From positions 62,001 through 126,000 of the forward strand of contig NZ_SMKW01000002.1 in NCBI RefSeq assembly GCF_004348985.1: DNA of 64,000 bases, given 5' to 3'. The notes below the pieces were generated by a model that was not told where the DNA came from, did no database searches, and was given only the letters and a program-made list of their open reading frames with translations. Positions 34,703-37,051 of this stretch are shown one piece after another; within the stretch, counting starts at the first letter, position 1, and each line of letters begins with the position of its first letter. Position numbers and translations under genes: made by a program. The DNA comes from Saccharopolyspora elongata. GTDB taxonomy: Bacteria; Actinomycetota; Actinomycetes; Mycobacteriales; Pseudonocardiaceae.

Positions 34703-35299
34703 TCAGACGAGGTGGCCGAACACGACCAGGTTGTCCTCATAGCTGCGGCGCGTCTCGTCGAAGTCCCCGCCGCAGGTGATCAACCGGATCTCGGGGCGCG
34801 CCACGTCGCCGTACACGGCCTCGGTCGGGAACCGGTCTTTGGCGAACCGTTCGACGCGGTCGACGACGTAGGTGACCCGTGACCCGTCCCGGCGGTCGAC
34901 CTGGATCTGGTCACCGGGACGGAGGTCGCGCAGCCGGTAGAACACGCCGGCTTCGGTGTAGGAGTCGACGTGGCCGAGCACGACGAAGGGGCCGATCTCG
35001 CCCGCGCCGGGCCCGCCGTCGTACCAGCCCGCCTGCCCGGGTTTCTCGATCGGGGGAACCTGCACCGTGCCGTCCGCGTTCAGGCCGAGCGGGACGAGCG
35101 TCGACGCCACCCGGATGGCCGGGATCGCGATCCCGGTCGGGTGGGGATCGCCCGGGGCGGCCGTCGCCGGTCCGGGCGGGACCGGTCCGGCGGCCGCGAT
35201 CGGCGGCGGCGTGGAATCAGCGTCCGCCGGGCCGAAGAACGCCGAGCCGGCCGCGGTGATCAGCAAGATGCACCACATGGCCAGAACTGCGGGCCGCAT
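34703..35299 (-). CDS. Class F-like sortase
   Basis: A 198-residue sortase with an N-terminal membrane anchor (about residues 3-22), a Pro/Ala-rich linker to about 60 and a catalytic beta-barrel. The active-site His is in VVLGHVDSY, the Cys in LITCGGDF near residue 175, and an Arg near SYEDNLVV. Sortases cut a sorting signal and attach the protein to the cell wall. ATG 35297-35299 is used; GTG 35308 is an in-frame alternative. The likely substrate is encoded just upstream at 35402-36001, with a strong palindrome in between. Confidence 0.88.
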   Translation of the reverse strand: MRPAVLAMWCILLITAAGSAFFGPADADSTPPPIAAAGPVPPGPATAAPGDPHPTGIAIPAIRVASTLVPLGLNADGTVQVPPIEKPGQAGWYDGGPGAGEIGPFVVLGHVDSYTEAGVFYRLRDLRPGDQIQVDRRDGSRVTYVVDRVERFAKDRFPTEAVYGDVARPEIRLITCGGDFDETRRSYEDNLVVFGHLV

Positions 35300-35351
35300 G
35301 CTCCCCACCCCCGCCGTTTCCGGTGCCCGCGCCGATCGCGGGCCTTCGCGG

Positions 35352-35401: not shown

Positions 35402-36001
35402 TCAGCGCCGGGACTCGGCGCTCCGGCGACGGAGCGCGTAAGCGCCTCCGGCCGCCAGGGCGACGGCCGCCGCACCGCTGGCTGCCAGCAGCGGGGCGGT
35501 GGCACCGGACTCGTCGTGTGCCGTGGCTCCGCCGCCCGCCGGCACGGCGCCCACCGGCTTCTGCTCGACCTGCGGCCGCTGCTGCGGCTTCATCGGAACG
35601 GTGGGCTTGGCCGTCGGCTGCGGCCTGACCGAGGTCGGCCTCGCCGTCGGCGACTCTTGCGCCGGTTGCTGGGCCGGCTGCTGGGCCGGCGGCGCCGGAG
35701 GTGCCGGAGGTGCCGGAGGCGGTGCAGGCGGCAGGGCAGGTTGCTCGACCGGCGGCTTGACCGGCGGCTTGACCTCCTCCGGCGGGCAGTCCTCGAAGCA
35801 AGGCGGCGGCTTCGGGCAGTCCTCGGGTTTGCACTCCGGTGGCTGCAGGCAGTCTTCCGAGTTTTCGCACTGGTCATCGGTCGTTGACACCAGCGGTGGC
35901 TTCGCCATATTCCCTTCGGCGTTCCCCACAGGAGTCAGGCCGATCGACGTACCCAACACAAAGGCGGCGATCCCGCCAAGGCGAACAAGCGTTGAGGACA
36001 C
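35402..36001 (-). CDS. Proline-rich, six-cysteine surface protein (putative sortase substrate)
   Basis: A 199-residue secreted protein with a signal peptide (about 1-28), an acidic six-cysteine module (Cys 45, 51, 57, 62, 68, 72), a Pro/Ala/Gln region to about 140 with DNA-level tandem repeats (PPAPPAPP, QPAQQPAQ), a linker, and a C-terminal hydrophobic helix (about 170-190) followed by an Arg tail (LRRRSAESRR). Ahead of the helix is VPAGGGATAHDESG, not a standard LPxTG. The architecture is that of a wall-anchored protein, and a sortase gene follows. GTG 36001 has GGGAGG upstream; the earlier ATG at 36038-36040 is less likely. Function unknown; adhesion or a wall spacer is plausible. Confidence 0.78.
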   Translation of the reverse strand: MSSTLVRLGGIAAFVLGTSIGLTPVGNAEGNMAKPPLVSTTDDQCENSEDCLQPPECKPEDCPKPPPCFEDCPPEEVKPPVKPPVEQPALPPAPPPAPPAPPAPPAQQPAQQPAQESPTARPTSVRPQPTAKPTVPMKPQQRPQVEQKPVGAVPAGGGATAHDESGATAPLLAASGAAAVALAAGGAYALRRRSAESRR

Positions 36002-36014
36002 TCGAGCCTCCCTT

Positions 36015-36468
36015 TGATCATTCGAGCGAGAATCCCGCATCCGAGATCTTTTCCCCGATCGCCTCGCTAGATCTGAAGGCGACTATTCGTAACGGTAAGC
36101 ACCGTCATTCGGGTTGGCAGCGGCAGCAATGCATGATCATACGATCGGGGTGCTGTTGATATGTCCAATTGGGAATACTCTTCACGCAAGGTGAGATCGA
36201 CACCGATGCAGTGCTCCGATCACTCCGTTGGTCGTCGATCGACGCCGCGAAACCAGGGGGAATCGTCACAGATCGTCACCATTGGATTGCGTCGTGAGGC
36301 GACGATCGTCCATTTAGCCAGATCGTCCGCAAATGTGATCTGGCCACTTTGGAGATCAATTCTTCCGGGGCTGCCGAGAAATGATTTTGAGAAATGATCG
36401 AGACTGTTGATCTGTGGTGATCGTGCGGCGCGGGATATTCGCGATCAATTTTCGATCAATTTTCGATC
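36015..36468. repeat. GATC-rich, low-GC intergenic tract
   Basis: By eye I count 20 GATC sites in about 454 bp (first at 36016, last at 36465), where chance would give about two. Base composition is far lower in G+C than the rest of the window. Several are in larger words such as AGATCGTC (36270, 36320), GACGATCGTC (36301) and TGATCTG (36337, 36409). It contains no gene and lies upstream of the wall-protein gene. Confidence 0.75.
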
Positions 36469-36474
36469 AATTCG
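36442..36474. repeat. Three 11-bp direct repeats, CGATCAATTTT type
   Basis: Units start at 36442, 36453 and 36464: CGATCAATTTT, CGATCAATTTT, CGATCAATTCG. The 11-bp period puts each unit on the same DNA face. The third unit contains the stop codon of the GNAT gene. Confidence 0.85.
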
Positions 36475-37051
36475 CGCGAGGATGTTCCCCAAAGTGCCCT
36501 GAAAAGCCGGAAAGGTGCTGTGCGGACGCCGTGCGGCGCCGCCAGTCATCGGCGGTGATCAGGTATCGGTGGTGTGGCCTGTCGTATTCGACGCATTCGC
36601 CGTGGAACCGGAATCCGAGCTTGTCGAGCACGCGCGCCGATGCCGGGTTCCGCGGGTCGACGACCGCGGTCAGCCCCGGCAGGTGGAGCCGGCCGAACGC
36701 CGCGGCGAGGCAGACGTGTCCGACCTCGGTGGCGAGGCCGTGCCCCCATCGTCGGCGCGCCAGGGTGTAGCCGAACTCCGCGCCGCCCTCGTGCGCCTCG
36801 AATCCGGCGTCGCCGATGAGGTCGCCCGTCGAGCGCTCGATCACGGCCCAGAACGAGTAGCCGTGCGAGCGTTGGTGCTGGATGTAGTCGTTCACCATCG
36901 TCGCGCTCTCCGTCGCCGAGGCCGCGTTCCCGTACGCGACGTAGCGCATCACCTCGGGATCGCCGTAGACCGCGTGGATCGCGGCGTGATCTTCGGTCCG
37001 GAACGGGCGGACCTGCAGGCGGGCGCTCATCAGCGGGAACCGGATAGCCAC
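36467..37051 (-). CDS. GNAT family N-acetyltransferase (RimJ/RimL type)
   Basis: A 194-residue acetyltransferase of the RimJ/RimL branch. Motifs are LQVRPFRTEDHAAIHAVYGD at the start, YSFWAVIERSTGDLIGDAGF, the acetyl-CoA loop RRRWGHGLATEVGHVC near residue 120, and NPASARVLDKLGFRFHGE near 155. Such enzymes acetylate protein N-termini, polyamines or drugs; the target is unknown. GTG 37051 has AAAGGG at good spacing; ATG 37030 is the alternative. Its end reaches into the GATC-rich tract. It is divergent from the TetR-hydrolase pair. Confidence 0.87.
   Translation of the reverse strand: MAIRFPLMSARLQVRPFRTEDHAAIHAVYGDPEVMRYVAYGNAASATESATMVNDYIQHQRSHGYSFWAVIERSTGDLIGDAGFEAHEGGAEFGYTLARRRWGHGLATEVGHVCLAAAFGRLHLPGLTAVVDPRNPASARVLDKLGFRFHGECVEYDRPHHRYLITADDWRRRTASAQHLSGFSGHFGEHPRAN

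Follow-up and report, generated by a model that had tools for sequence, protein, structure and literature searches.

The locus described here lies in a 64-kb stretch of a Saccharopolyspora genome (the window), in which a class F sortase gene, the gene for a proline-rich wall protein and a GNAT acetyltransferase gene are neighbours. Between the GNAT gene and the GTG start codon of the wall-protein gene is an intergenic tract that carries an array of GATC words (Table 1). All three genes are on the minus strand, so the tract is 5′ of the wall protein, which is where a first-pass annotation of this DNA had placed it. The same annotation had estimated 20 sites, about one per 23 bp, in one of the least GC-rich parts of the window, and direct counting bears out both statements. 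Exactly 20 sites occur between 36016 and 36468, starting at positions 36016, 36045, 36057, 36070, 36135, 36143, 36195, 36218, 36237, 36271, 36304, 36321, 36337, 36354, 36396, 36409, 36419, 36443, 36454 and 36465, and no other 454-bp segment of the 64 kb has a lower GC content (0.52, next lowest 0.568, window 0.705). The description of the tract as free of genes is right in that the sequence is intergenic, but does not extend to its last base, as the final GATC shares sequence with the stop codon that ends the GNAT gene upstream (36465–36469).

Table 1 Features of the wall-protein locus (positions in the window)
Feature	Position	Strand	Remarks
Class F sortase gene, downstream of the wall-protein gene	34703..35308	-	Adjoins the wall-protein gene in 14/14
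Proline-rich wall protein, 199 aa, GVDTG-type sorting domain	35402..36001	-	GTG start at 36001
Array of 20 GATC	36016..36468	.	GC about 0.52; intergenic; counted; outlier; kept in 14/14 orthologues
Invariant GATC at -18, touching the ribosome-binding site	36016..36019	.	14/14; GATCWT in 2/14
Invariant GATC at -137 relative to the start codon	36135..36138	.	GATCWT in 14/14 species; within the block CGATCGTATGATCATG
TATGAT, possible -10 element	36136-36141	-	Overlaps the GATC at -137; putative
Repeat in three copies at 11-bp spacing, with GATCAATT, centred on GATC	36437..36472		Far end of the array
GNAT acetyltransferase gene, upstream of the array	36467..37051	-	Neighbour in 4/14 only

A GATC array that stands out from its genome

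Within the window, the array gives the highest GATC count of any 454-bp segment (19, runner-up 13), and the 500 bp upstream of the wall-protein gene contain 20 sites, against a mean of 8.4 (s.d. 2.3, maximum 15) in 300 dinucleotide-preserving shuffles. The first-pass annotation had held that the array would mean little if many intergenic regions were equally dense. Sliding windows over 1,658,701 bases, or 16%, of the 10.3-Mb draft genome (277 contigs) found no such density in the sampled DNA: the array was again the densest segment and no other exceeded 13 sites, and 266 other low-GC windows (GC < 0.58, overlapping) had a mean of 2.9 and a maximum of 9. The orthologous tract of one relative likewise tops its surroundings (16 versus 12 sites in 400 kb of genome G006).

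One premise of the first-pass annotation, a chance rate of one site per 256 bases or less, proved too low. The genome sample contains 8.1 GATC per kb, or one per 124 bases, and the local excess is thus about five-fold rather than eleven-fold. This background hardly differs between coding and non-coding sequence (8.3 and 8.2 per kb, respectively, in 357 kb divided by a rough gene finder). Across the whole window, 530 sites compare with a dinucleotide-based expectation of 337.5, yet match a trinucleotide-based expectation of 533.8, which makes the general excess a codon-level effect. Twelve other GATC-dense windows (10–13 sites per 454 bp) lie mostly in or beside open frames that are G+C-rich at third positions, and none equals the array in density. 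A whole-genome scan for GATC triples, which returned 311 places per strand against 2 with a reversed-word control, was left out of the argument.

Nor is the array a general feature of sortase substrates of this type. Among 30 loci with a GVDTG domain, as returned for 80 sampled genomes of the family, the number of GATC in the 500 bp surrounding the frame start was 20 at the present locus and 0–6 at the other 29, with frames taken from stop to stop, so that true starts may differ.

Conservation across Saccharopolyspora

The search for wall-protein orthologues gave 23 matches, of which 14 genes were used (L002–L012 and L018–L020); three further matches (L013–L015) fell on other parts of genes already represented by L019, L018 and L020, respectively, and six (L016, L017 and L021–L024) were weak matches to other proteins. 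A clear orthologue is present in 14 of 22 Saccharopolyspora genomes, with a weak match only in one more, and 19 genomes outside the genus yielded one weak match and no true orthologue. A DNA pattern of 19 bases taken from the tract matched six species (S. spinosa, S. shandongensis, S. hirsuta, S. kobensis, S. indica and S. oryzae); a protein-alignment search of a named genome collection returned 593 pattern stretches, none of which was confirmed by tblastn.

All 14 orthologues have 12–20 GATC within the 500 bp that precede the start codon, in each case more than in any of 300 dinucleotide-preserving shuffles of the same sequence. The alignment with relatives had been proposed as a test that the array would fail if relatives with the same wall-protein gene lacked the sites; every one of them carries the sites. 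Because the sortase gene accompanies the wall-protein gene throughout and the GNAT gene only occasionally (Table 1), the array belongs with the wall-protein gene and not with the GNAT gene.

The GATC words are also kept better than the sequence around them. In all 14 species pairs, GATC was retained 1.2–2.4 times as often as other 4-mers; examples are pairs at 76% identity (15 of 18 sites retained, against 39% for other 4-mers), 57% (7 of 19, against 17%) and 53% (4 of 18, against 11%). For 12 pairs, random mutation simulated at the observed divergence reached the site count of the partner species in 0–5 of 2,000 runs; for the two closest pairs it did so 109 times each in 2,000 runs. These simulation and retention figures are indicative only, as the model assumes a uniform rate and pairs share sequences. 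In the 14-way alignment GATC occurs in 51 columns, 18 of which have it in a single species, meaning that individual sites turn over as the number is held. Retention above that of other 4-mers, together with this turnover of positions, makes the sites look selected. The conservation upstream of every orthologue supports the first-pass view of the tract as a control region and as an array of binding sites for some regulator that reads GATC.

Anatomy of the array and its flanks

Only two alignment columns have GATC in all 14 species (Table 1), and five more have it in 10–12. The column at −137 is the sole one in which the word is extended to GATCWT throughout; here the site reads GATCAT and lies over the possible −10 element, although a promoter consensus scan of the region returned no promoter (the same scan found three terminator-like hairpins). 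Other columns keep the bare word in 12, 11 and 11 of the 14 species without any GATCWT. Conserved blocks that lack GATC, around TGGACA and GCTTACCG, suggest that further factors may bind besides a GATC reader.

The extended form GATCWT accounts for 4 of the 20 sites of the array and for 40 of 226 over the 14 arrays (17.7%, against 19.8% expected from composition). What marks the flanks is the avoidance of C: it follows GATC in none of the 40 flanks of the array and in 27 of 438 flanks over the 14 arrays, the flanks of related species being non-independent, where other C precede C in 25% of cases. Elsewhere in the same genome, C follows GATC in 17% of 481 flanks from low-GC windows and in 23% of the general background. 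The commonest base after GATC is G (0.44), not A or T.

Helical phasing of the sites is not supported, since in two of ten arrays the share of random sets came to less than 10% (97 and 45 of 1,000), and in the other eight it did not. There is likewise no sign of a structured RNA leader in Rfam, which gave no match at E up to 1 between 34000 and 38000. The far-end repeat of the array resembles the operators of BldC in consisting of short direct repeats with AATT. BldC repeats have the form AATTXXXX(C) and a spacing of about 9 bp (PMC5859096); the three copies seen here are spaced at 11 bp, centred on GATC and confined to one end, and do not fit the BldC pattern.

Candidate readers of the array

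The first-pass annotation could name no known system of this design, but one fits in outline. Gbn (SCO1839) of Streptomyces is a GATC-binding nucleoid protein of 73 aa (pI 10.53, 7.6 kDa), described as specific to Actinobacteria and having thousands of sites in Streptomyces; it prefers GATCWT, is loaded in more molecules where there is more GATC, and binds its own promoter, in which eight GATC lie between −561 and −239 (PMC9239103). The affinity for bare GATC in vitro is only moderately lower, methylated GATC is bound less well in vitro, and occupancy of bare GATC is not shown by ChIP in S. coelicolor; genes bound at the promoter are mildly suppressed, and only 9.5% of the strongly bound genes responded to a gbn deletion in S. 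coelicolor, compared with 6.9% overall (PMC9239103). The present genome encodes two Gbn-like proteins with an HTH_58 domain, 81% (G000:C191:7282-7482; L209) and 73% (G000:C26:13301-13501; L219) identical to a Streptomyces-like Gbn.

That reference protein was reached through cobN, which we take to lie near SCO1839 and used as the route to the gbn locus in Streptomyces-like genomes. A protein encoded near cobN, found in two of three sets of stretches from three such genomes, has 73 aa, a pI of 10.53 and a mass of 7.67 kDa; ahead of its gene, seven GATC lie between −482 and −273 and another at −43. These properties and the locus, rather than the published sequence, identify the protein as Gbn, a strong but indirect assignment. 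An orthologue occurs in all 22 Saccharopolyspora genomes, at 80–81% identity to the Streptomyces-like protein, and the Saccharopolyspora proteins match Pfam HTH_58. Before the gbn gene of the genus, GATCWT stands at about −110, −96 and −66, with all three sites present in 21 of the 22 genomes and two in the other (L197 onward), a pattern that suggests an active Gbn in Saccharopolyspora that regulates itself, as in Streptomyces, with its preference for GATCWT retained. The region upstream of the second Gbn-like copy (73%) is without GATCWT sites of the conserved type. As Gbn is present in all 22 genomes and the wall-protein gene in 14, their co-occurrence is uninformative.

The array shares with the Gbn targets of S. 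coelicolor, the gbn promoter in particular (Du et al. 2022, PMC9239103), the GATC core, several sites, a low-GC promoter region and a genome that also encodes Gbn. It differs, as far as the sequence tells, in having 20 sites compared with eight in the gbn promoter, in consisting mostly of bare GATC and in avoiding GATCC; GATCWT, which Gbn prefers, is found at the invariant −137 site in all 14 species and at the other array sites mostly not. For Gbn speak the right core, the right multiplicity, its universal presence and an invariant full-strength site at the presumed promoter; against plain Gbn stand the few GATCWT, the conserved bare sites, the predominance of G after GATC, the avoidance of GATCC, and the ChIP and gbn-deletion results from S. 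coelicolor. On balance, the best reading is that the tract is a multi-site operator, putatively bound by Gbn itself or by a closely related protein that is less strict about the flanking bases. Our probability for Gbn or a close paralogue as the reader is about 0.5.

Under this reading, the tract would be a promoter-operator for the wall-protein gene, perhaps shared by the class F sortase gene that follows, with selection maintaining the dense GATC array. Many molecules of Gbn, which is a small nucleoid-associated protein of actinobacteria with a single HTH, would coat about 450 bp. One full-strength site (ATGATCAT) would fall within the presumed core promoter; the clustered bare GATC would be accepted, as in vitro binding allows, unless another protein reads them. 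The operator is probably repressive: when Gbn is abundant, as it is late in development in Streptomyces, transcription of the wall protein would be expected to fall.

A different GATC-binding regulator, accepting A, G or T after the word and dedicated to the wall-protein and sortase pair, is a possible but doubtful alternative. It would account for the conservation of bare sites in the 14-way alignment, for the avoidance of a following C (0 of 40 flanks in the array and 27 of 438 over the 14 arrays, compared with 17% in low-GC DNA) and for a flank rule that departs from the GATCWT obeyed by the promoter of gbn itself in this genus. However, the search within the Gbn/HTH_58 family, the sole family covered, produced no candidate, and Gbn itself binds bare GATC in vitro at only moderately lower affinity (PMC9239103). 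Only tentatively, then, would we describe the tract as an operator of 12–20 bare GATC under the rule ‘not then C’, through which a reader unlike Streptomyces Gbn controls a sortase-anchored wall protein. Since site number is kept more than site position, an operator of this kind would work as a dose-reading switch.

It is improbable that the array is a mere by-product, a slowly evolving promoter region that was GATC-rich from the start and has no GATC reader. The conservation of non-GATC blocks is in keeping with such a region, and the two closest species pairs fit neutral decay. Against this, counts of 12–20 persist down to 53–57% identity, where simulated mutation leaves about three sites, and the single-species columns indicate that sites arise anew and that their number is held. 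The first-pass suggestion of silencing of the Lsr2 type, with GATC incidental, is as unlikely to be the explanation. Lsr2 binds AT-rich DNA across actinobacteria (PMC6584129), and low GC, 0.52 in a genome of 70% GC, makes the tract AT-rich relative to its genome and compatible with this part of the proposal. The scarcity of GATC in the other low-GC windows and its retention above other 4-mers are left unexplained by Lsr2 alone, which could nevertheless act in addition to a GATC reader.

GATC switches that depend on Dam are known in enterobacteria, and they resemble the present array in placing GATC in the promoter of a surface-protein gene. A methylation-sensitive switch of this type, also proposed in the first-pass annotation, is very improbable here even though GATC is the Dam site and its methylation reduces Gbn binding in vitro, as the array has far more sites and no D12-class methylase was found in any of the 22 Saccharopolyspora genomes by a search that covered PF02086 and no other methylase family (control positive in 4 of 14 genomes, including that of Escherichia coli).

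We found no publication on such an array in the literature of one open-access library on GATC in Saccharopolyspora, clustered GATC in actinobacteria, Gbn/SCO1839 and other GATC-binding nucleoid proteins, and class F sortases in Saccharopolyspora. That a chromosomal protein reads GATC is already known; what appears to be new, as a variation on this theme, is an operator so dense, with a different flank rule and kept by selection in front of a single surface-protein gene. With thousands of Gbn sites in Streptomyces and few bound genes responding to deletion (PMC9239103), it is unclear where binding matters. A region that retains 12–20 GATC across a genus, with drift at most other positions, is a strong candidate for one in which GATC binding does matter. 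It offers a defined target gene and a scorable surface phenotype, and lets the number versus the position of sites, as well as a second actinobacterial GATC reader, be tested directly.

Several observations concern the wider HTH_58 family and the candidates tried before it. Gbn resembles the archaeal CRISPR-repeat-binding protein Cbp1 (NF040595), with E values of about 1e-8 for two proteins and 3.5e-6 for a third, below the curated cut-off (L176, L209 and L219), and HTH_58 matches also occur in the Haloferax and Sulfolobus controls. Several such matches, one of them below the pair cut-off, fall within a single open frame of 14,299 codons (G003:C1:2130855-2135915). A route to Gbn through HTH_7 (PF02796) gave 93 matches in the present genome, 8 of them over the cut-off; seven small or medium frames and three others were checked, and none fitted. 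Another protein considered as Gbn (G000:C110:276420-276626; 69 aa, pI 10.8; matches in 62 of 118 genomes) was rejected, having HTH_11 and HTH_23 over their Pfam cut-offs and upstream regions that are mostly not GATC-dense. The frame that follows it presumably resembles a Clp N-terminal domain, and directly before the start of this HTH protein is a TTGACA-rich inverted repeat (L124 and L143).
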